Shown: one piece after another, positions 12,111 to 38,494 of the stretch
Layout: each line of letters starts with the position of its first letter
Numbering within the stretch: position 1 is the first letter of the stretch
Source of the DNA: an uncultured bacterium
GTDB lineage: Bacteria > Patescibacteriota > Minisyncoccia > Moranbacterales > GWC2-37-73
DNA length: 43,234 bases
Direction: 5' to 3'
Assembly: GCA_903861715.1 (NCBI GenBank)
Contig: CAIOVI010000041.1
Span: 1-43,234, forward strand
The notes under the pieces: generated by a model
Database searches by the model: none
What the model saw: only the letters and a program-made list of their open reading frames with translations
Told to the model about the DNA's origin: nothing
Made by a program: the position numbers and the translations under genes

Positions 12111-13655
12111 ATGTCCTCCAATAATCTTGCAAAATCAACTGTCTGGCTCATTGTCTCGGAATTGATTTTTAACCTTTCGGGTTATTTCATTCATTCTTTC
12201 GTTGGCCGCATCCTTGGGCCGGCTGATTATGGCCGCTACGGTTTGGTCGTGACGCTGACCACGATGGTCATTATTTTGATTGGCAACGGCATCCCGACCG
12301 CTATGAGCAAATATATGAGCGAGGTTTTTGAAACCAATCCCAGTCTCATTCCTGTCATCAAGCGTCAAGCCATCATTATGCAAGGCCTGCTGATTGCAGC
12401 TGTGACCGTGATTTTTTATTTTTCGGCTTCATTGATTGCCAAAGTCTTGGGCGATCCATCTTTGACTGCCCTGTTCAAACTCTCGGCTTGGATTATTCCT
12501 TCTTTTGCGCTAGCATCTTTCTATTTCTCCTACTATACTGGCCTGCATCAATTCAATTTGCAGTCCATCATGAAAACCGTGCGTTCTGTTTTCAAGGTTG
12601 TCATCATTGTGGGCATGGCCTGGAAATGGGGCGTGCCTGGCTCAGTGCTGGGTTATGCTTTCTCAACCTTCGCCGTTTATTTTATCGCCGTAGCCATTGA
12701 TAAGTTGAAATTTTCTCGAGATTTGAAAAAACAAATCGCTCTCCAACAGCAAACAGCAACTAAGCCAATTGATGTTTTTTTTGATTACAAAAAACTTCTC
12801 AACTATGCTTGGCAAGTCATCATTTTCTTTTTGGCCTATGAACTCCTCATCAGTATCGACCTTTATCTCGTCAAAGGAATTCTGCATGATGATTATCTGA
12901 CCGGAATCTATAACGCCGCCCTGACCGTTGGACGCATTCCCTACTACATTTTCTACGCGCTAACCATCATGCTCTTGCCAGTCATTTCCAAAACCACAGC
13001 TGAAAATGATCACGCGCAAACCAACGCCGTCATCAGTCAATCCCTGCGCCTCATGCTAATCCTGCTGATTCCTGCGGTAATTTTGATGTCACAATTTTCG
13101 CGTCCCATCATCAAACTTTTTTACAGCGCTAAATATCTCGATGCCGCTTATCCAATGTCAATTCTGGCCTATGGGGTGGGCTTTTTGACCATCTTTTATG
13201 TCATGAGTTTTGTGCTCAACGGCGCCGGTAAAACCAAGATCCCAATGTGGATTTCAATTTTTGGCGTGATTATCAATTCAATTTTAAATTATGTTTTCAT
13301 CAAACGCTATGGCCTCGCTGGTAGCGCCATTGCCACCACCCTCACTTCCTTTGTCACCATGCTGGCAATTCTCTTTTACATCCAGCGCGATTTTGGGGTG
13401 ATGATTCATTTGAAAAGCTTGCTCAAACTTTCGTTGGCTGGAATTTTGCTGTATCTGGCTTCACTTTTCTTCAGTCAGGGCGCTTTTATTTTCCTGCTTT
13501 GGGCAACCCTGCTTTTTGTCGGCTATTTGCTTGTCCTCTATTTGCTTGGGGAAATAACCCCGGCCGACCTTGATTATCTGCAAGAAATAATTTCCAAGAA
13601 AGCCAAGAAAGTTGAAATCCAAGAAGAACTTTCCGGCAATGAACCAAAAGCGTAA
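12111..13655 (+). CDS. Wzx/PST-type lipid-linked oligosaccharide flippase
   Basis: A 514-residue polytopic protein of the MOP superfamily (polysaccharide transport) that would move polyprenyl-linked oligosaccharide across the membrane. The N-terminus has the family look (STVWLIVSELIFNLSGYFIHSFVGRILGPADYGRYG), followed by GIPTAMSKYMSE and about 12-14 hydrophobic helices. The mid-protein FVLNGAGKTKIPMWISIFGVIINSILNY is a typical PST repeat-half signature. It has no direct co-transcribed partner and ends at a strong bidirectional terminator. In the context of the locus it is the candidate exporter for block-assembled glycan. Confidence 0.88.
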   Translation: MSSNNLAKSTVWLIVSELIFNLSGYFIHSFVGRILGPADYGRYGLVVTLTTMVIILIGNGIPTAMSKYMSEVFETNPSLIPVIKRQAIIMQGLLIAAVTVIFYFSASLIAKVLGDPSLTALFKLSAWIIPSFALASFYFSYYTGLHQFNLQSIMKTVRSVFKVVIIVGMAWKWGVPGSVLGYAFSTFAVYFIAVAIDKLKFSRDLKKQIALQQQTATKPIDVFFDYKKLLNYAWQVIIFFLAYELLISIDLYLVKGILHDDYLTGIYNAALTVGRIPYYIFYALTIMLLPVISKTTAENDHAQTNAVISQSLRLMLILLIPAVILMSQFSRPIIKLFYSAKYLDAAYPMSILAYGVGFLTIFYVMSFVLNGAGKTKIPMWISIFGVIINSILNYVFIKRYGLAGSAIATTLTSFVTMLAILFYIQRDFGVMIHLKSLLKLSLAGILLYLASLFFSQGAFIFLLWATLLFVGYLLVLYLLGEITPADLDYLQEIISKKAKKVEIQEELSGNEPKA

Positions 13656-13819: not shown

Positions 13820-13930
13820 GACTTATACCAAATTAACTAAAACACTGTTAGTTTCAAGGAGGCTCAACCTCCATTATGGAGGTTGAGCCTCCAACGTCTA
13901 TCTACCATTAATTAAGTTAATTCTGTATTA
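13820..13930. repeat. TIR element (MITE-like) family 2, long copy with hairpin
   Basis: The ends are inverted repeats: CTTATACCAAATTAACT near the left and AGTTAATTCTGTATTAG at the right (about 14 of 17 matching). Inside is a perfect hairpin (13858-13892), GGAGGCTCAACCTCCA / TGGAGGTTGAGCCTCC with loop TTA. A short copy lacking the hairpin is at 31407-31456. The right end supplies the TAA stop codon of the GT2 gene on the minus strand. Confidence 0.75.
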
Positions 13931-14869
13931 GATATTCTTCTTCCTAATCACATAAATTGGACGATTGATGACCTCGCGATGGATATTGGCCACATAAAGA
14001 GCCAACAGTCCAATGGACATCAAAATGATTCCGACCAAGAAAAGAATCAAGATCGCCAAGTTTTCAGAATCAGAAAAGGTTGAGGCAAAGTGCGTGCGAA
14101 AAACATATTTCCCCAGCATAATATAAAAGCCCGAAAGACCTGAAAACAAAGTGATGAAGATTCCCAAAGAGCCAGCCAACTTGAGCGGCATCAGACTCAA
14201 AGAAATAAAGCTATTCATGGCCAAGCCAAACAATTTCCAAAAACTATAACTAGCCGTGCCATGGAGTCGCTCATTGGCGTCAAAATAAATAAAATCCCGC
14301 TTGAAACCAAGCCAATCAATGAGCGCCCTGGTCATGCGACTGGTTTCCGTGAAACGAGAAAATTCAGCCACCACAACTTTGTCAATCAATCTAAAGTCCG
14401 TGGCGTTTGGCACCACTTTCACCTCCGCTATTTTGTTGATGATGTTGTAAAAAAGTTTCGAACCAAGTTTTTTGATCCAGCCATCACTCTTGTTTTTGTT
14501 TCTGATTCCAATCACCACATCAAAACCTTTTTCCCACCTGGCGATAAATTCTGGAATGAGCTCCACCGGATGTTGCAAATCAGCATCCACCATGATGCAA
14601 GCGTCGGCCTGACAATTGTTGATTCCGGCTGTGGTGGCAACCTCCTTGCCAAAATTTCTCGAAAAATCAATGAATTTTACCCTCGGATCGGCGGCGGCCA
14701 ATTTTTCAATTTCACCAATCGTGTTGTCCTTGCTGCCATCATTGACAAACAAAATCTCAAAGGCATACTGGCTTTCAAGGGGGGCAAAAATCTTCGTAAT
14801 TTCCCTGTGGAAAGGCAAAATGTTCCTTTCTTCGTTGTAAGCTGGAACAATAATTTGAATTGATTTCAT
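13928..14869 (-). CDS. GtrB/CsbB-like polyprenyl-phosphate glycosyltransferase (GT2)
   Basis: A 313-residue inverting GT-A enzyme, closest in pattern to bactoprenol glucosyltransferases (GtrB, YfdH, CsbB), which make undecaprenyl-phosphate-glucose from UDP-glucose at the inner membrane. Motifs: IIVPAYNEERNI, FVNDGSKDNT, DFSRNFGKEVATTAG (the RNFGK(x)A signature), MVDADLQHP with the DxD-type metal site, NATDFRLIDK, and HGTASYSFWKL. The C-terminus has two long helices, and ends in basic residues. It has a strong promoter at 14906-14934. In context it makes the lipid-linked sugar used by the adjacent GT-C enzymes. Confidence 0.9.
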   Translation of the reverse strand: MKSIQIIVPAYNEERNILPFHREITKIFAPLESQYAFEILFVNDGSKDNTIGEIEKLAAADPRVKFIDFSRNFGKEVATTAGINNCQADACIMVDADLQHPVELIPEFIARWEKGFDVVIGIRNKNKSDGWIKKLGSKLFYNIINKIAEVKVVPNATDFRLIDKVVVAEFSRFTETSRMTRALIDWLGFKRDFIYFDANERLHGTASYSFWKLFGLAMNSFISLSLMPLKLAGSLGIFITLFSGLSGFYIMLGKYVFRTHFASTFSDSENLAILILFLVGIILMSIGLLALYVANIHREVINRPIYVIRKKNI

Positions 14870-23724: not shown

Positions 23725-25359
23725 TTATTTATTCAATTTATAAACAAAAATGCTATTAACTTCTGCGTAGGGATAATAGTTTTGGGCGCCCGCTTTACAA
23801 CTAACCATGTAAGTTGGACCTTCTTTATTTTCAGACAATTGGGGTTCAGCTGGAATTTCCTCGGAAGTAACCCCGTGCTTTTTCAAGACATAAGCCAAGG
23901 GCATATACACTACTCGGAAAGTCTTATCGCCACCAAAATAAATCGGCTGGCGCCCACCAGAGTTTGCCATCAGATACTGCGCCACAGGCTCAAGCTCCCC
24001 GATGGTCGTCGAATGAGATGAGCAAGTTCGATCTTTGGCCACCAATGGCAGTGCCTGATCCGCAATAGCCACACCATTGGTAAAAATTAATAGTAAAACA
24101 AGCAAAGTCAAAAGTCCCCGCATCTGCTGCTTTGAAAATTTCTCCTGAATAAATTCAACTAGCAACGCCAAAAGCACGAATGGCACAAAGAAAACCGGTG
24201 TCAGATATCTCAAATCATTAAATTTATCCATGCTCAAGGAAATCATAAGCAGAAAATTAATGGCGCAATAAAAAACAATCAGCCGCAAAAAGTATTGTTG
24301 ACTTTTCCCTTTCTCGTTTTTCGCCTTTTTAAACAAGAGGAAATAACCGAAAAATGAAAAGACCACCGCCAGTAGCATCACCAACCGGCTAAACACATCT
24401 TGAAAAAATTTCGAAGAATTTTTGGTTCTGACCTCAGCATAGGCTACAGGATTCAAAAAATCATAAATGCAATTACTGCTGCCATAGGAAGACAAATAAT
24501 AAGCGTTGGCTTCAACATGACAGTCTAAATCATTTTTGATGAGCGTAAACTTGCTTATTCCAGGACCATTGTCTCGCGAAGAAGAACTCAGCAAAATTTT
24601 AGTGTTACTAAAATTGCTTTTTAGCTCGCTGATGATTTGAGTGGTGTTTAAAACGCAGACTAGCAAAAAAACCAACATCCATTGGGGCCAAGCCTTGAAA
24701 CTCTTTTTCAAGGAAAACAGCATCACAAAAAAAGCAACTACCAAAAACAAAACCATTATAATCACGTGGAGTTGCACGCCCACGCCCACTGAAATTCCCA
24801 ACAAGCTTGCCCAGCGCCACTTCGCCTGCTCGTTTTTCTCCAAAAGTTTGTGCAGTGAAAACAAAAATAAAAGCACAAAAAAGGGAATCAAATTGGTGTT
24901 CCAAGCAAAACGCGAATACTGCACAAAATAGGAAGAGATGGCAAAAAGTCCCGCGACCCCCAATGAAGTTTCTCGTCTGAAATAAATTCGCAAAAACAAA
25001 TAGAGCAGCGGAATTGCCAGCACCCCAAACAACACATCTGGATAGGCCAATTTATCGGCATAATTGCCAAAAACTTTGCTTGAGATAATCTGAAAATAAT
25101 AATAAATTGGACCCAAATGAAAAGAATTTGTTTCCAAATGATCACCATCGCCAGAATAACTCATGTAGGCGCCCATCATTGGCCAAGGTTTTTCACCCTG
25201 CACAACTTGACTGACCAGAGTCGCGTCTCTGGCTTGATCATCCCTGAATTTAAGCCAACTGTGAAAATTATAGGTTCGCAAAAAAATACCTACCAAGATG
25301 ATTACAGTCAAAATCCAAATATGGGTTGGAACTTTTTTTAATTTTTTAGAAAAATTCAT
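23725..25359 (-). CDS. GT39/ArnT-like GT-C glycosyltransferase, paralogue 6
   Basis: A 544-residue array member: helix 1, then RTYNFHSWLKFRDDQARD (28-45), FHLGPIYYYFQIISSKVFGN, YPDVLFGVLAIPLLYLFLRIYF, and FAWNTNLIPFFVLLFLFSL. It carries the long loop of the paralogue 2/3 subgroup (MGAYMSYSGDGDH). The external cysteines CHVEANAYYL...CIYDFL are conserved, and the C-terminal domain ends with SCKAGAQNYYPYAEV. It starts 62 bases after the frameshifted ALG10-like gene and closes the operon that begins at the metallophosphoesterase. Confidence 0.82.
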   Translation of the reverse strand: MNFSKKLKKVPTHIWILTVIILVGIFLRTYNFHSWLKFRDDQARDATLVSQVVQGEKPWPMMGAYMSYSGDGDHLETNSFHLGPIYYYFQIISSKVFGNYADKLAYPDVLFGVLAIPLLYLFLRIYFRRETSLGVAGLFAISSYFVQYSRFAWNTNLIPFFVLLFLFSLHKLLEKNEQAKWRWASLLGISVGVGVQLHVIIMVLFLVVAFFVMLFSLKKSFKAWPQWMLVFLLVCVLNTTQIISELKSNFSNTKILLSSSSRDNGPGISKFTLIKNDLDCHVEANAYYLSSYGSSNCIYDFLNPVAYAEVRTKNSSKFFQDVFSRLVMLLAVVFSFFGYFLLFKKAKNEKGKSQQYFLRLIVFYCAINFLLMISLSMDKFNDLRYLTPVFFVPFVLLALLVEFIQEKFSKQQMRGLLTLLVLLLIFTNGVAIADQALPLVAKDRTCSSHSTTIGELEPVAQYLMANSGGRQPIYFGGDKTFRVVYMPLAYVLKKHGVTSEEIPAEPQLSENKEGPTYMVSCKAGAQNYYPYAEVNSIFVYKLNK

Positions 25360-25421
25360 ATAATTTTTTTAAATTAAATATATACCCGTTTAAAGACTTA
25401 GGCACTTATAGGAAATTAACC

Positions 25422-26637
25422 CTAAAACCCAAATCGAAAAAGCAGAATACTATAACCGATCGAGAAAAACAAAAAATAGAAAACCAGCAGATATTCTTTC
25501 TTTGGCTCAAATTCTTTCCTAAATAATAACACAAAAACCAATGGAATAATATAATATCGCTCATCAATAAACATCGATGGCACCAAACTCAAAACAACAA
25601 AAGCATAGAAAAGCGCCATTTTTTTCTCCAGCTTTATCTGAACAAGCGTCAAATATCCCAACAAGATTGCGCCTGCATAGGCCCAGACATATTTACTATA
25701 CGCCAAGCACAATAAATCATTTTTCAAAAATTTAGTCTTGAGAAAATTATATTCATGCAATTTTGGCGTAAAAAAAAACAAATGAAAGTGCTAGCACAAT
25801 TCCCACCCCAAGACTGAAAAACAAAAACTTTTTATTTTTGAAAGCAAGATAATTGCTACGAAAATTAAACAAAATTGTTGGCCAAAAAAGCAGGCCCGCC
25901 ACAACCAACAAAAAATAAAGATTGCCTCGATAAAGGCCAATCTGCTGCATTTCCTTGTCTCCAAAAGCAATGCCCTTGTTGAGCCACAAAAAAAATGCTC
26001 CGATCGCAAAAACCACCACGAATCCAACCGTTTGACGCAGGTGAATAAGCAGTTTTTTGCTTGAGAAAGTCCAATCGTTTTCTGCCAGATAAATATAAAC
26101 CCAAAAAAACAAAATCCAAACAATATTGGTTTGGCGCACTAGCAGTGAAATTAAAGAAAAAATGGCCGCTGACCAATAGCGTTTCTTCAAAGAAAAATAA
26201 AACGCCAGCAGCACCCAAAGCAATGAAAAAATATCGGTGTAAAGCAGTGGAAAATAAACGAAAGACAAAGGCAAGAAAATAAATTGGATCGTTTTCACCA
26301 GAGGATTTTCCGCCTTAAGCTGCCTTGCAATCAAGAAAAATATCCCAATGGAAAAAAGGGCCAGCCCTAAACTAAGCAGGCGCATGCCTTGAAGCGAAAC
26401 TGCCCCTGTCAATTTAGCGAAGCTTGCAATTGTGACATGGTATCCTGGAATAGTCGTCAAATCTGGCAAAATTTCAAATTTTCCATCCAAAAAACGATGA
26501 ATTTGACGGTTGTGCGTTCGCTCGTCAACATGGGTGCTTTTTTCGGAAAAAATAATGCCTAGCCAAATAGCCAGAGCTACGCCCAGCAGAAAAACAAACG
26601 CTTTGTTTTTTTCAATAAATGACTTCAGGTCAAACAT
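25422..26637 (-). pseudogene. ALG10-like membrane glycosyltransferase, frameshifted at a T9 run
   Basis: Two overlapping frames (26637-25753 and 25781-25422) together match the intact gene 36187-37413 from end to end. The first frame has VDER (37-40), LTTIPGYH (60-67), FPLLYTDIF (129-137) and RQTNIVW (168-174), the marks of the DIE2/ALG10 (GT59) family. It breaks after SFVFF at a run of nine Ts on the minus strand (25778-25770). One more T would give SFVFFFTPKLHEYN and join the second frame, whose end matches the paralogue (LVPSMFIDERYYIIPLVFVLL with LLPSFLVEQRYALVSFVLL). This could be a real mutation, phase variation, ribosomal slippage or a sequencing error. It lies inside the GT-C operon, 9 bases after paralogue 7. 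Confidence 0.8.
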
Positions 26638-26646
26638 GCAATTTTA

Positions 26647-28395
26647 CTATTTCTTGATAAAAATATTAGCCACATCTTTCCAATAAATTCGATCTTCACT
26701 ATCTTTTGATTTCTTGAATTTAAAATCAGCTGAGACTACTCGATTAGTAAAATTTATTTCATAAACCGTCAATTGTCCAAATTGCTGCGAAGCAATTACA
26801 GCGACATCCCTGCCATATTTTGCATAAACATCATCCAAGCCGTTTTTGGCTGGCGTGATTGCAAAAAATTGCGCCTTGGGATTTTGATCAATTCGCATAG
26901 TGACAAAATTCAAATTTTTGTCTTTTTTCTCCAAAAGCAGAAAATCTATTGGTCTGACATGTTCTGGTTTGACATAATAATAAAGCGTCCAACCTTCTTT
27001 ACGACGACCGTACATCCAATCAGTGACTCCCTGCAACTGACTAAGCGTCACCCCATCCTTGGCCTTTAAAATCAAGGTTCTTTTTACCTCAAGCGCTTTC
27101 TTTTGCGAACTGGCTTGTTCCTTGAACCAAGCATAAGTGCCGTGACTATTCCAAGCAACAATCCCCACTGTGAACAAAATTGCCAACGCAATTGCTTGCT
27201 CTTTTTTGAGCTTTTCTTCAAAAAATTCAAAAGCGAGTCCCAAAAAAATAAACGGGATAGCAAAAACCACAATGAAAAATCTTGGCCTGAGTTGAAAAGC
27301 AACTGGAATCGTCAAAATTGAAAACACCCCGACCCAAATGAGCAGCATTGCCAAAAAATCACGTTGCAAAAGATTGGTCTTTTTGCGCAGCCCTCTGACA
27401 GACAAGCTCAAACCAGCCAGCAAGACCAGCCCAGTGACCAAAAGAGCAGGCACTTCTTTTTTAATGCTACTGCCATAGCATTGCGAAGTGGTAACCAAAC
27501 AATAATATTTGGCATTTTCTTTGACATCCTTGAAAATTTTCTCCCCGAAAGAATCCTTGCTTGGTTTGGAACCCATCGCTTCAAAAAAATTATGAGTGTT
27601 CTCCCCTTTTTTGAAAACATCACTTATGATAACTGGGGTATAAAGAAAAAGAAAAACTGCCAAGGCAATTGCCGCATACCCTGCCATTTTTTTCAGCATC
27701 TCTCGCTGCAACAAGGTTTTGATTTTAGCCAGCTTCCAAAGTTGATGATGAAAACCAATCAAAAGACCAGACGCTCCAAGCAACGTGAAAAAACCAAAAA
27801 AATGAAGTTGCGAACCAATGGTAGCAGCAAAAGCCCAGAGCGCTATCCACCAACGACGCTTTTTTTCATTTGGTTCATTGAGCATCCTGAGCAGACCATA
27901 AAAACTCAGTAGCAGAAAAAATTGCAAAGCATTTGGATTCCAAGAAAAACGTGAATATTGAATAATGATGAATGAAAACGCATACATGGTGGCGATGAGC
28001 AAAGAATTTAACCTTGAAAAATAAAGTTTGGCCAAAAAGAAAAGCATTGGAATAGCCAGGATCCCAAAGAAAAGATCAGGATACGCCAAAACATAAGGCT
28101 CTGTTGAATTGAAAAGTTTTCCCGCCACATATTCAAAATAATAAAAAGCTGGTCCCAAGCGCAAAAAGCCGTGCTTGAGTTTCACAGCGCCGGCCCTGGC
28201 TCCCAACAGTGGCAGATATTGCGGACCTTCATTGATGGATTTGCTCATCAAAATTGCATCTCGCGATTGATCCATTTTGAAATAAAGCCAATCATCAAAT
28301 TTGTAAGTGCGCACAAAGACTCCCCCTGCAATAACAACCAGCAGCACCAACGAAACCCAGTTCTTTTTGGCCCAAGTTAAAATCGGATTATTCAT
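26647..28395 (-). CDS. GT39/ArnT-like GT-C glycosyltransferase, paralogue 7 (most divergent)
   Basis: A 582-residue array member, the longest. RTYKFDDWLYFKMDQSRD (29-46) is recognisable but diverged, followed by LLGARAGAVKLKHGFLRLGP, FYYFEYVAGKLFNSTEP and RFSWNPNALQFFLLLSFYGLL. The C-terminal external domain is about 180 residues, larger than in the others. It starts 1 base after the stop of the metallophosphoesterase, so the two are translationally coupled. It is the first glycosyltransferase in the 29302-23725 operon. Confidence 0.8.
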   Translation of the reverse strand: MNNPILTWAKKNWVSLVLLVVIAGGVFVRTYKFDDWLYFKMDQSRDAILMSKSINEGPQYLPLLGARAGAVKLKHGFLRLGPAFYYFEYVAGKLFNSTEPYVLAYPDLFFGILAIPMLFFLAKLYFSRLNSLLIATMYAFSFIIIQYSRFSWNPNALQFFLLLSFYGLLRMLNEPNEKKRRWWIALWAFAATIGSQLHFFGFFTLLGASGLLIGFHHQLWKLAKIKTLLQREMLKKMAGYAAIALAVFLFLYTPVIISDVFKKGENTHNFFEAMGSKPSKDSFGEKIFKDVKENAKYYCLVTTSQCYGSSIKKEVPALLVTGLVLLAGLSLSVRGLRKKTNLLQRDFLAMLLIWVGVFSILTIPVAFQLRPRFFIVVFAIPFIFLGLAFEFFEEKLKKEQAIALAILFTVGIVAWNSHGTYAWFKEQASSQKKALEVKRTLILKAKDGVTLSQLQGVTDWMYGRRKEGWTLYYYVKPEHVRPIDFLLLEKKDKNLNFVTMRIDQNPKAQFFAITPAKNGLDDVYAKYGRDVAVIASQQFGQLTVYEINFTNRVVSADFKFKKSKDSEDRIYWKDVANIFIKK

Positions 28396-28396
28396 A

Positions 28397-29302
28397 TTAT
28401 TTTGTGTAAAGATATTGAACTGACATTTTATTTAAATCAATTATACCATAGCCACCTAGCTCATTTTCTCTCGTCAATGCGCTCTCACCGAAAAAATTCA
28501 GACCGTCAAATTGCTTGTTCCATTTCACGTGAAAATGTCCAGAAAGCACCAAGCCAATATTACCGCTATCGTGCAAAATCTTTTCAAGTTCCGTGTCCTG
28601 GGAAAGCACCCGTGCCTCTTGAGTCACTGGAAAAATCGGCACATGCATCGCCACCACGACTTTTTTGTCAGTCGCAAGGGTGTCCTTAAGCCAAGCAAAT
28701 TGCGCAGCATCAATACTCTTAGCTTCATAAGCTTGGACACTGTCGTCTAAAACAACTACGCGCGTCTGGCCAAAATCTTTAGCATAGTAAAAATTATTTC
28801 CAACCAAACCAAGTTTGCGCATCGAAGCGTCACTGTCATGATTGCCTTTCACCCAAAGTACCTGCATGTTTTTTCGATAGGCAATTTTGGCAAGTTCTTC
28901 ACTGTAACCCTCATCACCAGAATTCACGTTGTCCCCAGTAGCCAAAACTGTGGTGATGCCCTGGAAACGAAGTTCATCAAAAACTTTTGGCAAATACTCC
29001 GAATAGCTCTTCGGAAATAAAGTTCCACTTTCCACGGTTCTGCGCTTGAACCTGTCAGCGTGAATGTCAGTCACCCAACCAAGCTTGGTCGGCTTGCTTT
29101 GATCATAGCCATGGGCAAAATCACTAAAGCGAAGCCAATCATGCTGAACCTCAATTGAAATTGCAGAAGTTGTCTTGTCATAAGCATCGAGGAACCTGTT
29201 CTTGAAAGAATTCTTACCCTTGATTGAAAAGACCAACAACAAAGCAACCAACAAGATGCCAGCAAGCGAAATCAGCAGTTTCTGCTTTTTAGATAAAACC
29301 AT
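28397..29302 (-). CDS. Membrane-anchored calcineurin-like metallophosphoesterase
   Basis: A 301-residue protein with one N-terminal membrane anchor (about residues 8-27) and an external phosphoesterase domain. The metal and catalytic motifs are complete and in order: TDIHAD (78-83), GDN (123-125), GNHD (153-156), AMH (218-220) and GHFH (255-258), the calcineurin/purple-phosphatase pattern with two metals. A promoter with a palindromic spacer precedes it. Heading a GT-C operon, it could free polyprenyl phosphate or remove a phosphate from the glycan outside the cell; that is inference. A nuclease or nucleotide phosphatase is also possible. Confidence 0.88.
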   Translation of the reverse strand: MVLSKKQKLLISLAGILLVALLLVFSIKGKNSFKNRFLDAYDKTTSAISIEVQHDWLRFSDFAHGYDQSKPTKLGWVTDIHADRFKRRTVESGTLFPKSYSEYLPKVFDELRFQGITTVLATGDNVNSGDEGYSEELAKIAYRKNMQVLWVKGNHDSDASMRKLGLVGNNFYYAKDFGQTRVVVLDDSVQAYEAKSIDAAQFAWLKDTLATDKKVVVAMHVPIFPVTQEARVLSQDTELEKILHDSGNIGLVLSGHFHVKWNKQFDGLNFFGESALTRENELGGYGIIDLNKMSVQYLYTK

Positions 29303-29360
29303 TATTTTTTACTTTAGATTTAAACTTAGGCCACTTTTGCCAAGTGTTTCAATGCCTTTC

Positions 29361-29389
29361 ATTATAGCCCCCAAAGGGCTTTTTGAAAA
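29361..29389 (-). promoter_or_regulatory. Promoter of the metallophosphoesterase-GT-C operon
   Basis: On the minus strand TTTTCA, 17 bases, TATAAT. The spacer holds AGCCC-TTTGG-GGGCT, a 5-base inverted repeat between the two boxes that could be an operator. Start of transcription is predicted near 29354, about 50 bases before the ATG. Confidence 0.6.
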
Positions 29390-29413
29390 GACCTGCAACA
29401 AATTCTCGACTTG

Positions 29414-29443
29414 TTTACAAAAGAATCATTTTAGAAGTATAAT
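29414..29443 (+). promoter_or_regulatory. Divergent promoter for the GT-C gene at 29517
   Basis: TTTACA, 18 bases, TATAAT. Transcription should begin near 29450, leaving a leader of about 65 bases with no obvious Shine-Dalgarno. Confidence 0.6.
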
Positions 29444-29516
29444 ACCTGATATAAAGAGGCCAAGATTTTTTAATTATTGCTTGAGTTTTAATTTAACTTA
29501 CCTATCCATCAAAATT

Positions 29517-31355
29517 ATGAAAGCAAAAATAATCACTATCGCAATCTTTGCGACTATTATATTGTCGAGCTTTTATTTCGGCTATGAACGACTGACCAAT
29601 TTTTCTGGGGTTGATGAACCCTATTGGTCATATGGCCGAGTGCCAAACTTCTGGAATGCCATCAAAACTCACCAATGGAAAAAAACCAACATCTGCGACA
29701 AGCCTGGCATTCCCTTGGCGGCAATTTCCGGCGCAGGCCTGCCTTTCATTAATGGCAATTTGAAAAGTCTGAAGAGTCTACGCTTTGATCCCAAGACTCC
29801 CGAACAGGTTACCCAAATCCGCGATGCCTATTTCCGTTTGCGGCTGCCAGTTTTTCTTTTCACTTTGCTAAGTTTGCCTCTTTTTTATTTTCTGATCAAA
29901 AAATTGCTCGGGCAGCAAACAGCTAAGTTTGCCACCATTTTCATTGGCTTTTCGCCAGTGCTGCTGGGAATTTCCCTGATCATCAACTCTGATGCCATGC
30001 TTTGGATTTTGACAGCCCTTTCCACGCTGAGTCTTTTTGTTTTTTTCAAAAACGACCAGCGAAAATATCTGCTCCTCTCTGGTTTTTTTCTCGGCCTTTC
30101 CGTCATCACCAAATATGTGGCCAATGTGCTTTTTGTTTATTTCTTTTTGGTTTTTCTTTTGGAATATATTCTTTGGGCCCACCAAGCAATGGAAATTCAA
30201 AAATATCTCAAACTTGCCCTGAAAAATTATCTGCTGCTTTTTGTCACCGCTATGCTTACGGCTTTTGTTTTTTTTCCAGCCACCTGGGTCAAACTAAGTG
30301 TTCTCTATAACGCAACCTTGGGCAACAAAGTTTTTTCTTCAACCCTGCCGCTTTTCCTTGGCATTATTGTAATTTTGGCCATTGATATTCTGGCTTTCAA
30401 AGCAAAACTATCCAATTTTATTTTTGGTTTTTTTGTGAAAAATCGAAATCTTTGGGTCAAAATCACTGCCGGCGCTTTTCTGATTTTAACGGTTTTTGTT
30501 TTTTTGCATGTTTATGGGGGTCTGAAAATATATGACTTGCAGGCCATCATTTCCTCCCCCAAGGGCATTGGCTCTGGTAGCACACCTTACAGATATTTAG
30601 GGGCACTTTCAGGAGACCTTTACAGTTTGGTGTTTAGTCTTTCTCCCCTGGTTCTTGTTTTTTTGCTCCTTTCAATTGGCAACCTTTTCCGCAAAAACAA
30701 ACTCGAGCGCAATAGCATCACAGTCGTTTATATTGTGATTTTCATTTTTATTTTCTATTTAGGTTCCGCCGTCAATGAGGTGGTTAACACCGTGCGCTAT
30801 CAGATCATGGTTTATCCTTTGGCTTTCGTTTTGGCTGCTATTGGAATTTCACAAGTTTTTGAAATTGAAAAAATCAAAAAATTTGTTCCGGTTGAAGCTG
30901 CCTACGTCGCCTCGATTTTGATCTTATTGGTCAGTCTTTTCTTGGTCAGACCAAATTTCTTGGCCTACGCCTCAGAAATTTTGCCCAATAATTTCATCGT
31001 CAACCTCAAAGGCATGGGCGAAGGGAGCTTTGAGGCCGCCACCTATCTCAACAGTTTGACTGGTGCCCACGAGCTGACCATTTGGTCAGACAAGGGCGCC
31101 GTTTGTGAAGTTTTTGTCGGCAAGTGTTTTATTGATTTCAAAAAACCAACTTTTGCTGAAAACAAATTCGATTATTTTGTTGTTTCCACTGATCGAAAAT
31201 CAAGAACCTTGAAACTTTCTGGCGGAGTCAATGAGGTGGCAAATTTCAAAAAGGCTTATGCCACCCAAAATCCAGCCCATGATATCATCATCGATCAAAA
31301 CCCAAACAATTTTGTCAAAGTGATTAAAGGAGCAGCTATTTTGGTTCAACAGTAA
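29517..31355 (+). CDS. GT-C (PMT/GT39-like) glycosyltransferase
   Basis: A 612-residue polytopic enzyme, unrelated in detail to the seven-member array. The external loop after helix 1 has GVDEPYWSYGRVPNFW (31-46), with the adjacent acidic pair expected for polyprenyl-phosphate-sugar transferases of the GT39/GT83 type. Other motifs are LPLFYFLIKKLLG, FSPVLLGISLIINSDAML, and FFLGLSVITKYVANVLFVYF, as in PMT proteins. The C-terminal about 140 residues are external. The open frame goes on upstream to 29202, but it crosses the promoter and the opposite gene, so I use MKAKIITIAIFATIIL at 29517. A GtrA-like flippase follows 117 bases downstream. Confidence 0.8.
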   Translation: MKAKIITIAIFATIILSSFYFGYERLTNFSGVDEPYWSYGRVPNFWNAIKTHQWKKTNICDKPGIPLAAISGAGLPFINGNLKSLKSLRFDPKTPEQVTQIRDAYFRLRLPVFLFTLLSLPLFYFLIKKLLGQQTAKFATIFIGFSPVLLGISLIINSDAMLWILTALSTLSLFVFFKNDQRKYLLLSGFFLGLSVITKYVANVLFVYFFLVFLLEYILWAHQAMEIQKYLKLALKNYLLLFVTAMLTAFVFFPATWVKLSVLYNATLGNKVFSSTLPLFLGIIVILAIDILAFKAKLSNFIFGFFVKNRNLWVKITAGAFLILTVFVFLHVYGGLKIYDLQAIISSPKGIGSGSTPYRYLGALSGDLYSLVFSLSPLVLVFLLLSIGNLFRKNKLERNSITVVYIVIFIFIFYLGSAVNEVVNTVRYQIMVYPLAFVLAAIGISQVFEIEKIKKFVPVEAAYVASILILLVSLFLVRPNFLAYASEILPNNFIVNLKGMGEGSFEAATYLNSLTGAHELTIWSDKGAVCEVFVGKCFIDFKKPTFAENKFDYFVVSTDRKSRTLKLSGGVNEVANFKKAYATQNPAHDIIIDQNPNNFVKVIKGAAILVQQ

Positions 31356-31472: not shown

Positions 31473-31943
31473 ATGATTTTAGCAAACATCGTTAACAAAA
31501 TTTTTGATTTTTTTCTGCCCAAAAAAACACCACCCAGTGTTCGTCAATTTTTGAACTACTTGATTTGCGGCGGAGTTGCTACGCTGGCAGACATGAGCGT
31601 GCTTTTTGTTTTCACCAAAGTTCTGCATCTCAACTATCTGCTCGCAGCCGCCGTTGGCTTCGTGATAGGCGTCACCACAAATTATGCCCTCAACACTGCC
31701 CTGGTCTTCAAGAGTCAAGGCAAGGTCAAAAAGGAACTTTCACTTTTTGCCTTGATTGGCATTGGCGGCTTGCTTTGGACAGAACTCATCCTGTGGCTTT
31801 TGGTCAAAAAATTTGGAATCTATTTGATGATCGCCAAAGCCATTGCGGTCATCCTGGTTTTGTTTTGGAACTTTTTCATGCGCAAAAGATTTGTTTTTTC
31901 TTCTCAACCAAATTTGGAAGACTTGGAAAAAAGTCTGCAATAA
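31473..31943 (+). CDS. GtrA-family membrane protein (putative lipid-linked sugar flippase)
   Basis: A 156-residue protein of the GtrA/DPMS family with four membrane helices. The first half has RQFLNYLICGGVATLADMSV, then FVIGVTTNYALNTALVF, and a late VLFWNFFMRKRFVF. These match the family pattern of F..VG......NF...R..VF. GtrA proteins are thought to flip polyprenyl-phosphate-glucose to the outer face. Together with the GtrB-like genes at 13928 and 34936 and the GT-C enzymes it would complete a GtrA/GtrB/GT-C system. It lies between a GT-C gene and a pair of terminators. Confidence 0.9.
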   Translation: MILANIVNKIFDFFLPKKTPPSVRQFLNYLICGGVATLADMSVLFVFTKVLHLNYLLAAAVGFVIGVTTNYALNTALVFKSQGKVKKELSLFALIGIGGLLWTELILWLLVKKFGIYLMIAKAIAVILVLFWNFFMRKRFVFSSQPNLEDLEKSLQ

Positions 31944-32254: not shown

Positions 32255-33415
32255 TTATCCTCGCTGAATTTGAGAAATGTTTTTTGTTTTAACGTAAAGT
32301 TCAAGATATTGTTGGGCAATGTTTTGCCAACTTAGTTGCTGAGCCAACTCCAAACTATTTTTGCCCATCGCCAGTTTCAAGTTTCTGTCCAAAATCAACT
32401 GTTCAATTTTCTCCACCAAATCGTCTGCCACATCAATCCTGACTGAAAAACCATTGAATCCGTCAATGACCAAATCCTGGGTGCCAAAAACTGGGGTAGT
32501 CACAACTGGCAAGCCCGCTGCCAGAGCCTGGCGAATTGCAAAGCCATTGTCAACTTGTTGATCCTGAGAAGGCAGCACAAAGACATCTGCCTGCTGATAA
32601 CAAGCCAATTTTTTTTCAAGTGAAAGCTCCCCCAGAAAGATAATTCTTTCAGCCACTTCCAAACTTCGAGCCAAGTCATATAGCGATTGACGCTCACTTC
32701 CCTCACCCGCAATCAAGAGTTGCAGATTTTCATAGCGACCCGCCAAAATTTTGAAAGCTTGAATCAAAAAACGAATTCCCTTGCTAGGGATGATTTGACT
32801 GTCGCACAAAATGCCGAATTGCTCAGCCTCTTGCTTGGTTGCAGCTGGAGAAAAGAAATCCAAATCCACACCCTTTTTAAGCAGACCAATTTCTTTTGCA
32901 ACGGAAACTTTCGCCAAAAAACCTCTCAGGTTTTGATTATCCACGATCAAAAAACTTGAATTTTTCCAAACCCTAAAGACAAAATATTTCAACAAAGGAT
33001 TCCCAACCATGCCAGCATCTTGATTTTCGGCAGAAATCAAATAGGGCACTTTCTTTTTTCGACTCAGTAATTGGCAAATCAATCCATCTGGAAAAGAAGT
33101 GAAAGCGTGCGCAATTTCAAAAACATTGCCCTCGGCCATAAGCTCAAGTGAAAATTTGTAAGCTCGGCTAGCATAACTAAACATTTCAAGCACTGAAAGA
33201 TTGCTAGCCTTAACTTGCTTTTTGCCTATTGCTAAGCAATGGATAGTGACATTTTCACCCATTTTCAAAAGATGATCTTGCCCGTCAGTTGAAATGGTCA
33301 CCAAATCAATTTCAAATTCTGGATTCTTGGCATATTCGCGCAGCAAATAAAAAGAAGTGCTTCCCTCGCCTTCCCCTGCCGGCAAAAAATTGTGATCAAA
33401 AAAAAGTATTCTCAT
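32255..33415 (-). CDS. Family 4 glycosyltransferase
   Basis: A 386-residue GT-B enzyme beginning MRILFFDHNFLPAGEGEGST, a GT4 N-terminus. The frame extends to 33451, but those 12 residues (MFHVPWFMF...) are the translation of a TTCCATG-type repeat. Domain 2 has KKGVDLDFFSPA, IIPSKGIRFLIQAF, LLIAGEGSERQSLYDLA, and QQADVFVLPSQDQQVDNGFAIRQALAAGLPVV, the nucleotide-sugar binding region. It is the last gene of the 35874-32255 operon with GtrB/DPM-like and UDP-glucose dehydrogenase genes, so it may use UDP-glucuronate or a product; that is inference. Confidence 0.86.
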   Translation of the reverse strand: MRILFFDHNFLPAGEGEGSTSFYLLREYAKNPEFEIDLVTISTDGQDHLLKMGENVTIHCLAIGKKQVKASNLSVLEMFSYASRAYKFSLELMAEGNVFEIAHAFTSFPDGLICQLLSRKKKVPYLISAENQDAGMVGNPLLKYFVFRVWKNSSFLIVDNQNLRGFLAKVSVAKEIGLLKKGVDLDFFSPAATKQEAEQFGILCDSQIIPSKGIRFLIQAFKILAGRYENLQLLIAGEGSERQSLYDLARSLEVAERIIFLGELSLEKKLACYQQADVFVLPSQDQQVDNGFAIRQALAAGLPVVTTPVFGTQDLVIDGFNGFSVRIDVADDLVEKIEQLILDRNLKLAMGKNSLELAQQLSWQNIAQQYLELYVKTKNISQIQRG

Positions 33416-33431
33416 TTTTTCACAAAACATG

Positions 33432-33473
33432 AACCATGGAACATGGAACAAAAAATCAAGCTATTCCATGGTT
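33432..33473. repeat. Inverted repeat in the leader of the GT4 gene
   Basis: AACCATGGAA (33432-33441) and TTCCATGGTT (33464-33473) form a 10-bp stem within a TTCCATG-type degenerate repeat. It lies 17 bases before the start codon of the minus-strand GT4 gene and could hide it in a hairpin. Confidence 0.55.
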
Positions 33474-33559: not shown

Positions 33560-34885
33560 TTATCTTCCTATTGATTTATATTCAAATCCGAGTTGTTTCA
33601 TTTTTTTGGGTTCATAGAGCAGGCGACCATCAAAAATCAGCAGGGCTTTCAAAAGCTTTTTGATTTGCTCAAAATCTGGCGTGCGAAATTCTTTCCATTC
33701 AGTGATGATGAGCATAGCATCAGCTCCAGCGAGCGCTTCATATTTGTTTTCAAAATAAGTGATGCTGGGATTCTCTCCAAAATAAGCTGGAGTTTTGGCC
33801 ATTTTCATCGCCTCTGGATCATGCGCTTGGATTTTGGCTCCTCTTTTAATAAGCTCGCTTAAAATTGTGAGGGCCGGAGATTCGCGCATGTCATCAGTTC
33901 CTGCTTTGAAAGCCAAGCCCCAAGCGCCAAAGATTTTGCCATGCAAATCTTCTCCAAATTTATCCACCACCATTTGTGACAAAACAAATTTTTGCTTTTC
34001 ATTGGTCTGCAAGGTTTGCCTCAACATTTCAGCGTCATAGCCAAAATCCTTGGCAGTTTTGACCAACGCTTTCACATCCTTGGGAAAACAAGAGCCGCCA
34101 AATCCAGAACTAGCATACATAAAGGCTTCTCCAATGCGCGGATCAGCGCCCATGGCCTTGCGCACGTTTTCATAGTCAGCGCCGACCTTAGAGCAAACAT
34201 TAGCCAAATCATTAGCAGCTGAAATTTTAACGGCCAAAAAACAATTTGAAGCATATTTCACAATTTCAGCCGTTTTGGCATCCATAGCAAAGAAACGACT
34301 TTCTCGTCGAGTGAAAGGTTCATAAAGTTCTCGCATCGTCTCGATGGTTTTTGAATCATCAGCGCCAATCACAATCCGACTTGGCTCAAGAAAATCTTTG
34401 ACCGCTGTGCCTTGAGCCAAAAACTCTGGGTTACTGACCACGTGAAAAGGAATTTCAACTCCTCTTTTTTCAAGCTGCTGTTTGATATTTTTTGCAACCA
34501 ATTCCGCCGTGCCAACCGGCACCGTTGATTTGTCGACAATGATAAGTTCATGCTCCATCAGTTGTCCGATGGATGTGGCCACCCCAAGCACGTGACTCAA
34601 ATCAGCGCTTCCGTCTTCATTGGGCGGAGTGCCCACAGCAATAAAAATAATTTCACTTTCTTTGAGGGCTTTTTCCAAATCAGTCGTGAAAGTCAAAGTT
34701 TTGTTTTTCAAATTTCGAGCCACCAATTCATCCAAACCTTTTTCATGGAGCGGCACTTTGCCAGACTCAAACTGATCAATTTTCTTTTGATCTTTGTCAA
34801 CGCAAATCACCGTGTTTCCCATTTCGGCAAAACACGCCCCCGTAACCGACCCCACATAACCAGTCCCCACAACGCCAATTTTCAT
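33560..34885 (-). CDS. ugd: UDP-glucose 6-dehydrogenase
   Basis: Oxidises UDP-glucose to UDP-glucuronate with two NAD+. The 441 residues match the family length. Seen: the Rossmann motif GVVGTGYVGSVTGACFAEMG (4-23), AVGTPPNEDGSADLS (83-97), KSTVPVGT (119-126), NPEFLAQGTAVKDFLEP (152-168), and the active-site GFGGSCFPKD (261-270) with catalytic Cys266. C-terminal GLAFKAGTDDMRESPA is the third domain signature. It starts 50 bases after the stop of the upstream GT2, in the same operon. UDP-glucuronate would feed glycan synthesis. Confidence 0.95.
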   Translation of the reverse strand: MKIGVVGTGYVGSVTGACFAEMGNTVICVDKDQKKIDQFESGKVPLHEKGLDELVARNLKNKTLTFTTDLEKALKESEIIFIAVGTPPNEDGSADLSHVLGVATSIGQLMEHELIIVDKSTVPVGTAELVAKNIKQQLEKRGVEIPFHVVSNPEFLAQGTAVKDFLEPSRIVIGADDSKTIETMRELYEPFTRRESRFFAMDAKTAEIVKYASNCFLAVKISAANDLANVCSKVGADYENVRKAMGADPRIGEAFMYASSGFGGSCFPKDVKALVKTAKDFGYDAEMLRQTLQTNEKQKFVLSQMVVDKFGEDLHGKIFGAWGLAFKAGTDDMRESPALTILSELIKRGAKIQAHDPEAMKMAKTPAYFGENPSITYFENKYEALAGADAMLIITEWKEFRTPDFEQIKKLLKALLIFDGRLLYEPKKMKQLGFEYKSIGR

Positions 34886-34935: not shown

Positions 34936-35874
34936 TTAATTTTGAATGATTTCTTTAATATTATAATTCATCTTCCCTTGTCCTTTGTAATAACTCTTGA
35001 GAATAATGTCAGCCAAGAGTCCGAAGACGAAAAGTTGCACCCCAACCAAAATCAAAAAGATGCCAACCAAAGGCCATATTTTTTCGGAAAGTTGAACTTT
35101 GAACAAAATTTTGTCCACCAGCATCCACAGCAAAATGAGCGATCCAACCAGGGAAAGCGTGATGCCAGCGCCGCCAAAGAGATGCAAGGGTCGGTTGGAA
35201 TATTTTCGCCAAAACCAAATTGAAATCATGTCCACAAAACCTTTCATGGCACGCTTCCAATTGTATTTTGTGACTCCAGAAGTGCGAGGATGGTGACTGA
35301 CTTTAACTTCGCCCACGCTATAGCCTTGTAATTCCAACAGCGCTGGAATGAAACGATGCATCTCACCAAACAAATCCATGTCTTCAAAACAAGTTCTTCG
35401 ATAGGCTTTCAGCGAACAACCACTGTCGTGAATTTGGTCTTGAATCAAAATCTTGCGCAAAATGTTGGCACCGCGAGAAAAAAACTTTTTGCTCAAACTG
35501 TCTTTACGCTTCCAACGCCAACCAGCCACCACGTCAAAACCTTCTCCGATTTTCGCCAGCAGCAGCTTGATGTCCGCTGGATCATTTTGCAAATCGCCAT
35601 CCATCATCACAATGATTTCACCTTTGGATTGCTTGATGCCGGCATCAAAGGAAGCAGTCTGTCCAAAGTTTTTTCGAAATTTGATCAAAGTCAGCGGCGA
35701 AAGTCCTTCACAATTTTTCACCGTGCCGTCCTTTGAACCATCATCCACGAAAATAATTTCAAAAGGTTTGCCAATTGCCTGACACGCCTCCAAAATGCGC
35801 CTGTGCAGCTCTTTTACATTGCCCTCTTCATCATACAAAGGAACCACCACTGACAAATAAAGATTTTCATCCAT
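34936..35874 (-). CDS. GtrB/DPM-like polyprenyl-phosphate glycosyltransferase (GT2)
   Basis: A 312-residue inverting GT2. Motifs: VVVPLYDEEGNV, FVDDGSKDGT, KFRKNFGQTASFDAG, MMDGDLQNDPADI (metal-binding DGD), DSGCSLKAYRR, and HHPRTSGVTKYNW. Two C-terminal helices (about 230-250 and 260-290) place it at the membrane. This set matches ArnC/DPM1/GtrB enzymes that make polyprenyl-phosphate sugars. It is the first gene in an operon with UDP-glucose dehydrogenase and a GT4. SR copy D lies 64 bases upstream. Confidence 0.88.
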   Translation of the reverse strand: MDENLYLSVVVPLYDEEGNVKELHRRILEACQAIGKPFEIIFVDDGSKDGTVKNCEGLSPLTLIKFRKNFGQTASFDAGIKQSKGEIIVMMDGDLQNDPADIKLLLAKIGEGFDVVAGWRWKRKDSLSKKFFSRGANILRKILIQDQIHDSGCSLKAYRRTCFEDMDLFGEMHRFIPALLELQGYSVGEVKVSHHPRTSGVTKYNWKRAMKGFVDMISIWFWRKYSNRPLHLFGGAGITLSLVGSLILLWMLVDKILFKVQLSEKIWPLVGIFLILVGVQLFVFGLLADIILKSYYKGQGKMNYNIKEIIQN

Positions 35875-36186: not shown

Positions 36187-37413
36187 ATGTTTAACAAAAA
36201 TTCAAAATTAACCAAAAATAAGTGGGGCTTTCTCTTTTTGTTGGGACTGGCTTTTGCGGTCTGGTTTTTCATTCTCCTCACCAGCAACAATCATTTTGGC
36301 GATGAAACGGTGCACCACCATCAAATCAAACAATTTTTCAAAGGAAACTATGACATCTTGCCAGAATTGACGACTATTCCAGGCTATCATTTCGCCATTT
36401 CTTCTTTTTCTAACGTTTTCAGTGATCCAACATTGCAAAATTTTCGTCTGGTCAGCCTGCTGCTTTCCAGCTTTTCAATTTGGATTTTCTATTTGATTGC
36501 CAGGAAACTCCAAAACGGAAATCCTTTCACCAGAACACTTCAATTTATTTTTTTGCCAATTACCTTTCTTTATTTTCCCCTCCTTTACACTGATATTTTT
36601 TCTTTACTGTTTGTGCTATTGGCCTTCTATTTCACCCTCAAAAAACAATTCAAACTTTCTGCCTTGCTTTCCTTGCTCTCACTTTTGATTCGCCAAAACA
36701 ACATCGTCTGGATTGTTTTCATTTGGGTCTATGGCTATGTTTCAAATGCTGGCTTTGCTTTCTCACGAAAAACATTAATTGAATATTTCAAAAACACGTT
36801 TGAATATTTTTTCGTTTTTTTGGCTTTTGTTGTTTTTGTTTTTCTCAACAAAGGCATTGCCATTGGAGACGTTGAGGGTCATCCAACTGGCTTTTATTTG
36901 GGCAATCTTTATTTTGCGCTGGCACTGACTGGCTTTTTATTTTTGCCTTTCCTGCTAACCTCCCTAGCCAAATTTGATTTTGCCAAAAGAAAAACTTTTT
37001 TGTTCGGAGCAATTTTGCTTGGCATCCTCATTGCATCTTCTTTTATGCTCTTTCCACCTGCAATTCATCCCTACAACCTCACCACCCTCAAGGTTCACTT
37101 TTTGCGAAACCTAATTTTGCAAGCCGCCTATAATCAGAACATGTGGCTCTACGGCCTGGCAATTTTTGCCGGATTTTTGACTCTTTTTCTTTTAAAATTT
37201 GAGAAGAAAAATCTTTTGCTTTTTCCTTTTTCCGTGCTGGTCCTGCTTCCGTCTTTTCTGGTCGAACAACGCTATGCACTGGTTTCTTTTGTTTTGCTGC
37301 TACTTTTTTATGAAGAAGAAAACAGTAAGCTTGAAAAAATTACAATTTTTTATTGGCTTTTAATTTCACTCGGACTGACCTATATGATTTTAAACCTGAA
37401 CACTTTTCTCTAA
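36187..37413 (+). CDS. ALG10/DIE2-like (GT59) membrane glycosyltransferase, intact
   Basis: A 408-residue polytopic protein. Eukaryotic ALG10 adds the last alpha-1,2-glucose to the dolichol-linked N-glycan precursor using dolichyl-phosphate-glucose. Family marks seen: GDETVHHHQIKQFFKGNYDI (38-57) with the acidic pair in the first loop, LTTIPGYHF (61-69), FPLLYTDIFSLLFVLLAF (130-147) and IRQNNIVWIVF (168-178, for FRQTNIVW). About 10-11 helices follow. The C-terminus RYALVSFVLLLL matches the frameshifted copy at 25422. A bacterial enzyme of this family probably uses polyprenyl-phosphate-glucose outside the membrane; substrate is inference. The GalE gene follows after 94 bases. Confidence 0.78.
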   Translation: MFNKNSKLTKNKWGFLFLLGLAFAVWFFILLTSNNHFGDETVHHHQIKQFFKGNYDILPELTTIPGYHFAISSFSNVFSDPTLQNFRLVSLLLSSFSIWIFYLIARKLQNGNPFTRTLQFIFLPITFLYFPLLYTDIFSLLFVLLAFYFTLKKQFKLSALLSLLSLLIRQNNIVWIVFIWVYGYVSNAGFAFSRKTLIEYFKNTFEYFFVFLAFVVFVFLNKGIAIGDVEGHPTGFYLGNLYFALALTGFLFLPFLLTSLAKFDFAKRKTFLFGAILLGILIASSFMLFPPAIHPYNLTTLKVHFLRNLILQAAYNQNMWLYGLAIFAGFLTLFLLKFEKKNLLLFPFSVLVLLPSFLVEQRYALVSFVLLLLFYEEENSKLEKITIFYWLLISLGLTYMILNLNTFL

Positions 37414-37458
37414 AACTTTTTTAAAAAAACTATTAACCACGTAACCTGAAATGCAACA

Positions 37459-37505
37459 TGCGAAAATATTTTCCGTTTTACGTTTCACGTTTTACGTTCC
37501 ACGTC
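37459..37505. repeat. Degenerate TTTTACG/TTCCACG repeat before galE
   Basis: CGTTTTACGTTTCACG, TTTTACGTTCCACG and similar 9-10 base units. It is translated in frame as extra N-terminal residues in the longest GalE frame, which I reject. Confidence 0.6.
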
Positions 37506-37507
37506 CT

Positions 37508-38494
37508 ATGAAACTACTCGTCACTGGTGGTGCTGGCTATATCGGCAGTCACACCGTTCGCAAACTGAAAGCAGCCGGACATGAACTTGTCATCTTTGAC
37601 AATCTTTCTTCTGGCCATCAAGACGCCATCCAAACTTTTGAGCTCTTTGTCGGAGACCTGGTAAACAAGCAAGATTTGGAAAAAGTTTTTTCGCAGCACG
37701 CCTTCGACGGCGTGGTGCATTTTGCTGGCTCAATTGAAGCTGGCGAGTCCATGACTGATCCCAAAAGATTTTTCAACAACAATTTTGTTTGCGGACTCAA
37801 TCTTTTGGAAGCCATGCTGACTCACGACGTCAAAAAAATTATTTTTTCTTCTTCGGCGGCGGTTTATGGCGAACCAACAAAAATGCCGATCGAGGAAACT
37901 GCGCCCAAGAACCCAACCAATGTTTATGGCTTGACTAAATTGATGTTTGAGCAAGTCCTGGATGCCTATGATTATGCTTATGGTCTCAAATCTGTGGCCT
38001 TGCGCTATTTCAACGCCGTGGGCGCTGACCCTTCGGGCGAAATTGGCGCAGACCACAAAAACAAAACTCATTTGCTCACGCTCATGTTGCTGACCGCCCT
38101 TGGGCAGCACGACTCCATCAAAATCTTCGGCACTGATTTTCCCACCCCTGATGGCACTGGCATCCGTGACTATGTCCACGTCAACGACTTGGCTGATGCG
38201 CATGTCTTGGCCTTGGATTATCTGACGAAAAACAACAATTCCAACAAATTTAATCTTGGCAACGAAAAAGGCACTTCCGTGCGCCAAGTTATCGACCTGG
38301 CCAAAGAAATCACTGGCGTTGATTTCAAAGTCATCGAGGAGCCTCGCCGAGATGGCGACCCAGCCGAACTTTTTGCCAGCTCCCAAAAAGCCAAAACCAT
38401 CCTGGGTTGGCAGCCGCAATTTCCCGAAATGCGCCAAATCGTCGAAACTGCCTGGAATTGGCACCAAAAACATCCTCATGGATTTGAAAAATAG
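37508..38494 (+). CDS. galE: UDP-glucose 4-epimerase
   Basis: Interconverts UDP-glucose and UDP-galactose (or the GlcNAc/GalNAc pair). From 37508 it has 328 residues, near the usual 330-340. MKLLVTGGAGYIGSHT (1-16) is the NAD-binding GxxGxxG. SSSAAVYGEP (114-123) and YGLTK (140-144) carry the Ser/Tyr/Lys of the short-chain dehydrogenase active site. RYFNAVGADPSGEIG and RDYVHVNDLADAHVLAL are GalE signatures. An upstream ATG at 37451 gives residues encoded by a repeat. It supplies galactose-type donors to the glycan locus. Confidence 0.94.
   Translation: MKLLVTGGAGYIGSHTVRKLKAAGHELVIFDNLSSGHQDAIQTFELFVGDLVNKQDLEKVFSQHAFDGVVHFAGSIEAGESMTDPKRFFNNNFVCGLNLLEAMLTHDVKKIIFSSSAAVYGEPTKMPIEETAPKNPTNVYGLTKLMFEQVLDAYDYAYGLKSVALRYFNAVGADPSGEIGADHKNKTHLLTLMLLTALGQHDSIKIFGTDFPTPDGTGIRDYVHVNDLADAHVLALDYLTKNNNSNKFNLGNEKGTSVRQVIDLAKEITGVDFKVIEEPRRDGDPAELFASSQKAKTILGWQPQFPEMRQIVETAWNWHQKHPHGFEK

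Follow-up and report, generated by a model that had tools for sequence, protein, structure and literature searches.

In eukaryotes, ALG10 (GT59) is the Dol-P-Glc:Glc2Man9GlcNAc2-PP-Dol alpha-1,2-glucosyltransferase, and the ER-lumen enzymes that finish the N-glycan precursor have so far been treated as eukaryotic inventions. In GtrA/GtrB/Gtr serotype conversion, GtrA is accompanied by a GtrB-type GT2 enzyme that charges a lipid and by a membrane transferase that carries out the decoration on the outer face. The lumenal transferases, Alg10 included, "appear to be unique to eukaryotes" (Lombard 2016, PMC4973528), and the profile searches of that study led for the most part to PMT and DUF2029 proteins (PMC4973528). 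A prokaryotic DIE2_ALG10 (PF04922) branch was not found described in the full-text literature, which excludes most subscription papers, and such proteins are probably already flagged by automatic Pfam/InterPro annotation. What is new here is a DIE2/ALG10-family clade in prokaryotes that is distinct from ALG10 proper; one intact gene of this clade lies in the stretch of 43,234 nucleotides analysed (the window), taken from a genome of 1.28 Mb in 63 contigs that is 100% complete.

The gene content of the window comprises UDP-sugar dehydrogenases, GT4s, GT2s, a flippase, GtrA, GtrB/ArnC/PgfS-like GT2s, GalE and an array of PMT_2-type GT-C proteins (Table 1), and the intact ALG10-like gene is located between the divergent GtrB-like GT2 and GalE genes. 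In NCBIfam, the GT2 next to it scored 158 bits with the ArnC-type model and 150 bits with PgfS, each below the cut-off, while the second GT2 scored 227 bits with PgfS, also below the cut-off. The GtrA/GtrB/GT-C surroundings pointed out in a preliminary description of this DNA are real, with GtrA assigned by PF04138, the GtrB-like GT2s by PF00535, and several PMT_2 or PMT GT-C genes. Its suggestion of a polyprenyl-linked system also fits the setting: from the flippase, GtrA, the GtrB-like GT2s and the GT-C array, the locus looks like a polyprenyl- or lipid-linked glycan system. An RtcB-type RNA ligase gene (7932-9428) is found inside the glycan region, beside a thymidylate kinase-like gene.

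Table 1. Features of the glycan locus, with coordinates in the window
Feature	Coordinates	Strand	Assignment based on
Wzx/MurJ-type flippase	12111..13655	+	PF01943 77.3 bits, PF03023 57.9 bits
PgfS/GtrB-like GT2, second candidate polyprenyl-phosphate-sugar synthase	13928..14869	-	PF00535 100.6 bits
Array of six paralogous PMT_2-type GT-C proteins, 526-578 aa	15109..25359	-	PF13231; none to PF04922
Second DIE2/ALG10-family copy (copy 2), in two frames (25753-26637 and 25422-25781)	25422..26637	-	PF04922; relatives' profile
Run of nine identical bases (A on the + strand, T on the coding strand), frame change of copy 2	25770..25778	.	one of two 9-runs in the window
PMT-type GT-C protein adjoining copy 2	26647..28395	-	PF02366 36.8 bits
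PMT_2-type GT-C protein	29202..31355	+	PF13231 46.2 bits
GtrA/DPMS-type membrane protein	31473..31943	+	PF04138 90.6 bits
GT4 glycosyltransferase	32255..33451	-	PF00534 112.3 bits
UDP-glucose/GDP-mannose-type sugar dehydrogenase (UGD)	33560..34885	-	paralogue of the Pfam-assigned dehydrogenase at 120-1130
GtrB/ArnC/PgfS-like GT2, candidate polyprenyl-phosphate-sugar synthase, divergent from the intact gene	34936..35874	-	PF00535 104.7 bits
Intact DIE2/ALG10-family GT-C glycosyltransferase (P0001), 408 aa	36187..37413	+	PF04922; AlphaFold2 GT-C fold
GalE-type sugar epimerase, immediately downstream of the intact copy	37451..38494	+	PF01370 207.8 bits

The product of the intact gene, P0001, is a predicted membrane protein encoded by a single open reading frame. 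It was matched by PF04922 at 118.9 bits (E=4.4e-34, in two stretches; the curated gathering cut-off is 27 bits) and by no other Pfam family at E up to 1. At that same threshold it was left unmatched by the PMT_2, PMT and GT87 profiles, whereas its GT-C neighbours match PMT_2 or PMT. The ALG10 marks previously read in it were all located, namely DE in loop 1 (D39 E40), TTIPGYH at 62-68, LLYTDIFS at 132-139 and RQNNIVW (RQxNIVW) at 169-175. The family is unnamed in NCBIfam, which gave weak sub-cut-off matches only, mainly to AZOBR_p60025 and LA_3751/3752.

For the comparison with eukaryotes, approximate sequences of human, Arabidopsis and yeast ALG10 were used and checked by their PF04922 score; since they reached 447, 448 and 385 bits, respectively, against the full model, they should be close to the real sequences, small errors being possible. 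A profile of the prokaryotic members matched these three proteins at 110-176 bits, co-linearly from loop 1 to the C-terminal loop. Common to the approximate eukaryotic ALG10 sequences are, in P0001 numbering, D39, E40, H43, Q46, P65, G66, R87, P124, Y134, T135, R169, Q170, W175, N221, G227, P254, H294, E360, R362 and Y363, and the family residues D39 E40, Y134 T135 D136, R169 Q170 N172 and E360 R362 Y363, likewise common to them, are all present in P0001. Two differences from the three approximate eukaryotic sequences appear to be fixed or nearly so: the prokaryotic H68 (PGYH) corresponds to a eukaryotic Y (PGLY/PGIY), and where the prokaryotic proteins have HPYN the eukaryotic ones have HPYLLADNRHY, the alignment there being uncertain by a few residues. 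Lacking LLADNRHY, having PGYH for PGLY, and falling outside the eukaryotic clade (see below), the protein is no strict orthologue of ALG10, and the name GT59 glucosyltransferase, first given to it, presupposes a donor and a linkage; as their sequences read, the prokaryotic proteins are members of the PF04922 family and not ALG10 itself.

Given the observed fold, motifs and locus, we assign a probability of roughly 0.7 to the reading that the gene at 36187-37413 encodes an accessory plasma-membrane GT-C enzyme of the prokaryotic DIE2/ALG10 family, which would transfer a single sugar (glucose is the most likely one) from a polyprenyl-phosphate carrier onto a lipid-linked glycan that has already been flipped, the donor, acceptor and linkage all being putative. 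A polyprenyl-linked glycan would be assembled by the cytoplasmic GT4 and GT2 enzymes of the locus and turned to the outer face by the Wzx/MurJ-type flippase. With a UDP-hexose as the sugar source, the GtrB/ArnC-like GT2 would load polyprenyl phosphate, and the loaded lipid would reach the outer face with the help of GtrA. There, the ALG10-like enzyme, with D39/E40 as the putative base, would transfer a single residue onto the flipped glycan with inversion of the linkage, and the neighbouring PMT_2-type GT-C proteins may supply other residues. By analogy, the mechanism known for ALG10 and other GT-C enzymes would be the simplest for the prokaryotic member. It can also be the case that enzyme type and mechanism are alike and the donor is other than polyprenyl-phosphate-glucose (it might carry galactose, a pentose or a sugar derived from glucuronate), or that a glycolipid or wall polymer serves as acceptor instead of a flipped oligosaccharide. 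The fixed differences in two conserved loops, PGYH in place of PGLY and the absent LLADNRHY, may reflect a different donor or acceptor, GalE and UGD in the locus provide other UDP-sugars, and the tandem copies of some genomes suggest that members differ in specificity. However, the only characterised PF04922 members use Dol-P-Glc (PMC12472385), and the loop-1, YTD, RQxN and ERY residues are common to both sides. We place this alternative at not quite an even chance.

That the gene is accessory can be seen in the sister genomes. The genus includes five other genomes, and no PF04922 match was obtained in any of them. In one of them (G003) the locus is conserved, with identities of 88% for the GT2, 84% for UGD, 74% for GtrA, 85% for GtrB, 90% for the flippase and 86% for GalE, and with orthologues of the two GT-C neighbours (66% identical for the PMT-type protein that adjoins copy 2, and 80% for the separate PMT_2-type protein). 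In this genome 161 bp separate GalE from the GT2, with no intervening gene, and the position of copy 2 is occupied by a 731-aa protein (L136:4236-6428) with no Pfam match and no relative in the window. Another congener (G005) keeps GalE, both GT2s and UGD without an ALG10-like gene. Because sister genomes keep the glycan locus without it, the ALG10-like gene is a plug-in component in a decoration module that varies, and for the same reason it probably diversifies the surface glycan. The six-gene PMT_2-type array also differs between species of the genus, both in copy number and in content.

The preliminary description counted two copies of the gene. Both do belong to the DIE2/ALG10 sequence family, as the PF04922 search shows, and both carry the same motifs (DE, TTIPGYH, LLYTDIFS and RQTNIVW in copy 2), but the window contains a single intact gene and a second copy that is frameshifted, 49% identical to each other. 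The N-terminal frame of copy 2 (294 aa, ending at a stop) was matched by PF04922 at 107.6 bits (E=1.2e-30). The C-terminal part (119 aa), which lies in another frame, reached 18.6 bits by itself with PF04922, and 95.6 bits (E=5.8e-28) with a profile of the relatives, as an ALG10-like C-terminus. The two are separated by a one-base frameshift at the run of nine A, and a run of eight A would give an open frame. Copy 2 is a frameshifted relative, probably inactive or switchable. Slippage in the nine-base run could toggle the gene on and off. In accordance with such phase variation, the remainder of copy 2 is undamaged, its C-terminal part is kept in the next frame, and the break coincides with one of only two runs of this length in the window, where 17 were expected. 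Nevertheless, a recent pseudogene or an assembly error would give an identical picture, and copy 2 is known from a single assembly; we consider phase variation rather unlikely. A/T runs of at least nine bases are about eight times rarer in the window (1-43234) than a first-order Markov simulation predicts (2 found vs 17 expected), as if they were selected against.

Outside the genus, a scan of named genomes with a seven-member alignment rendered 39 loci, distributed among Moranbacteria, Peribacteria, Shapirobacteria, Gottesmanbacteria, Omnitrophota, Verrucomicrobiota, Bacteroidota, Myxococcota (Archangium, Corallococcus), Pseudomonadota (Motilimonas, Microbulbifer, Rhodanobacter, Chiayiivirga, Chitiniphilus, Marinicella) and one Woesearchaeota archaeon. 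P0001 has its nearest named relatives in Candidatus Moranbacteria/Moraniibacteriota, so that the uncultured source organism is most likely a CPR bacterium. PF04922 matched every one of the 46 aligned prokaryotic members. With their own profile, full or nearly full-length members scored above 200 bits vs 19-54 bits for other GT-C proteins, and judged by these scores the prokaryotic members form a discrete group. In the order to which the window belongs, 15 of 131 genomes, the source genome included, had a PF04922 match over the cut-off. The counts per phylum, in which the query genomes themselves are included, were 2/380 for the window's own, 1/299 for that of Motilimonas, 1/193 for that of the Woesearchaeota genome, 2/237 for that of an Omnitrophota genome and 4/195 for that of Archangium. 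By these counts the family is widely scattered yet rare everywhere, and since similar genes occur sparsely across many bacteria, and in at least one archaeon as well, the family is not peculiar to eukaryotes. No relatives were found on viral contigs, nor, with two queries, on plasmids.

Some genomes have several copies together. In an Omnitrophota genome, five consecutive ALG10-like genes are found on one strand (L030:2612-9101, JAKLFP010000004.1), with a further match ca. 5 kb away; a gammaproteobacterial MAG has four in one locus (L039:2679-14781), and two other loci (L040 and L042) have two neighbouring copies each. Interleaved with the four genes of that MAG, on the other strand, are three paralogous proteins of about 650 aa, and the one that was scanned had no Pfam match. 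Directly downstream of the ALG10-like gene in Motilimonas (L023-L025) a second GT-C-like protein is encoded (e.g. L024:9168-10463), which is distantly related (20-35 bits with the family profiles) and has no Pfam match. As for the remaining neighbours, in other Moranbacteria the gene is flanked again by the same two GT-C families, including that of the PMT_2-type array; in Microbulbifer, Archangium and a gammaproteobacterium it is beside or near a GT2; and in several loci of unrelated bacteria, although not in all, the neighbour is a DUF2079 membrane protein or another GT-C protein (PMT_2, GT87). Several genomes have neighbours with no relation to glycans, such as chitinase, AcrB or PEPCK.

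In a tree that includes the three approximate eukaryotic sequences, these form a single, long-branched clade (100/100), and the window copies fall inside a clade of the Moranbacteria order (100/100). Grouping the two window copies as sisters was not favoured (p-AU 0.15), without being rejected. A recent transfer of the gene from a eukaryote might be suggested by its patchy presence in the order and by a family first described in eukaryotes, but joining the eukaryotes with the window copies was rejected (p-AU 4e-5) and the eukaryotes, as represented by these three approximate sequences, are one clade outside a diverse prokaryotic set, which makes such a transfer extremely improbable. When the tree was rooted with a weakly related GT-C outgroup, prokaryote monophyly received a support of 22 and the deep forks were weak; with that outgroup, a grouping of the eukaryotes with the Woesearchaeota protein was not rejected (p-AU 0.81). 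The phylogeny that had been called for hence separates the eukaryotes from the window copies and leaves the root and the deep order weak. The wide prokaryotic family matching PF04922 does bear on the origin of ALG10, as had been anticipated. Tentatively, and with the odds against it, ALG10 could have arisen outside the eukaryotes, as one branch of a mobile family of polyprenyl-phosphate-sugar transferases that is older and prokaryotic; a surface-glycan system of bacteria or archaea would then have been the source of the last glucosylation of the N-glycan precursor, and the terminal sugar that modern prokaryotic members place on lipid-linked glycans would differ from one member to the next. With a distinct prokaryotic branch that carries the ALG10 catalytic-loop motifs, the origin of one lumenal enzyme becomes testable, and, through proteins of ca. 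400 residues from culturable bacteria, a family for which sequence searches found no related solved structure becomes accessible to structural and enzymatic work.

The AlphaFold2 model of P0001, built with the 46-member alignment (pLDDT 94.3), is confidently predicted to fold as a GT-C enzyme. The leading Foldseek matches were GT-C enzymes, although weak (best E 1.3e-3), and VIA-align gave ALG12 as the best match (Z 21.6, rmsd 3.9, 306 residues), followed by yeast OST (Z 20.3), ArnT with undecaprenyl phosphate (20.1), Pmt4 (19.1), ALG3 (14.7) and ALG6 (13.5), with GT-C-fold proteins throughout among the matches listed. A search of the PDB with either P0001 or the 46-member profile gave no sequence-related solved structure. 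Thirteen plausible membrane spans were counted by hand in the model from helices and hydropathy; 13 membrane helices have been proposed for ALG10, and various GT-C enzymes require the acidic motif of loop 1 (PMC6801728). That P0001 is an ordinary PMT_2- or GT87-type protein merely resembling ALG10, as a fold common to those families and a position among PMT_2-type genes might suggest, is scarcely credible, since PF04922 is its sole Pfam match and no other GT-C family in Pfam matches it better, PF04922 does not match its neighbours at 15109-31355, which are matched by PMT_2 or PMT, and the family scores stand well apart from those of other GT-C proteins.

The proposed role of P0001 as an ALG10-family decorating enzyme can be set against three kinds of known systems. 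With ALG12, ArnT, STT3/PglB, PMT and ALG6 it has in common the fold and the use, in our reading, of polyprenyl-linked donors, whereas identity over the aligned residues is 9-13% and those enzymes belong to other Pfam families. The logic of the GtrA/GtrB/Gtr systems is alike, and GtrA and GtrB-like GT2 genes are found in the locus, but those systems are a phage cassette, whereas here there is an ALG10-family transferase and a large chromosomal GT-C array. Eukaryotic ALG10/DIE2 (GT59) is alike in PF04922, the loop-1 DE, PG, YTD/E, RQxN.xW, N.G..G....H and E.RY motifs and the GT-C fold; besides the loop differences described above, the prokaryotic proteins are shorter (about 408 aa vs 473-525 aa), and the prokaryotic gene is part of a variable bacterial glycan locus.
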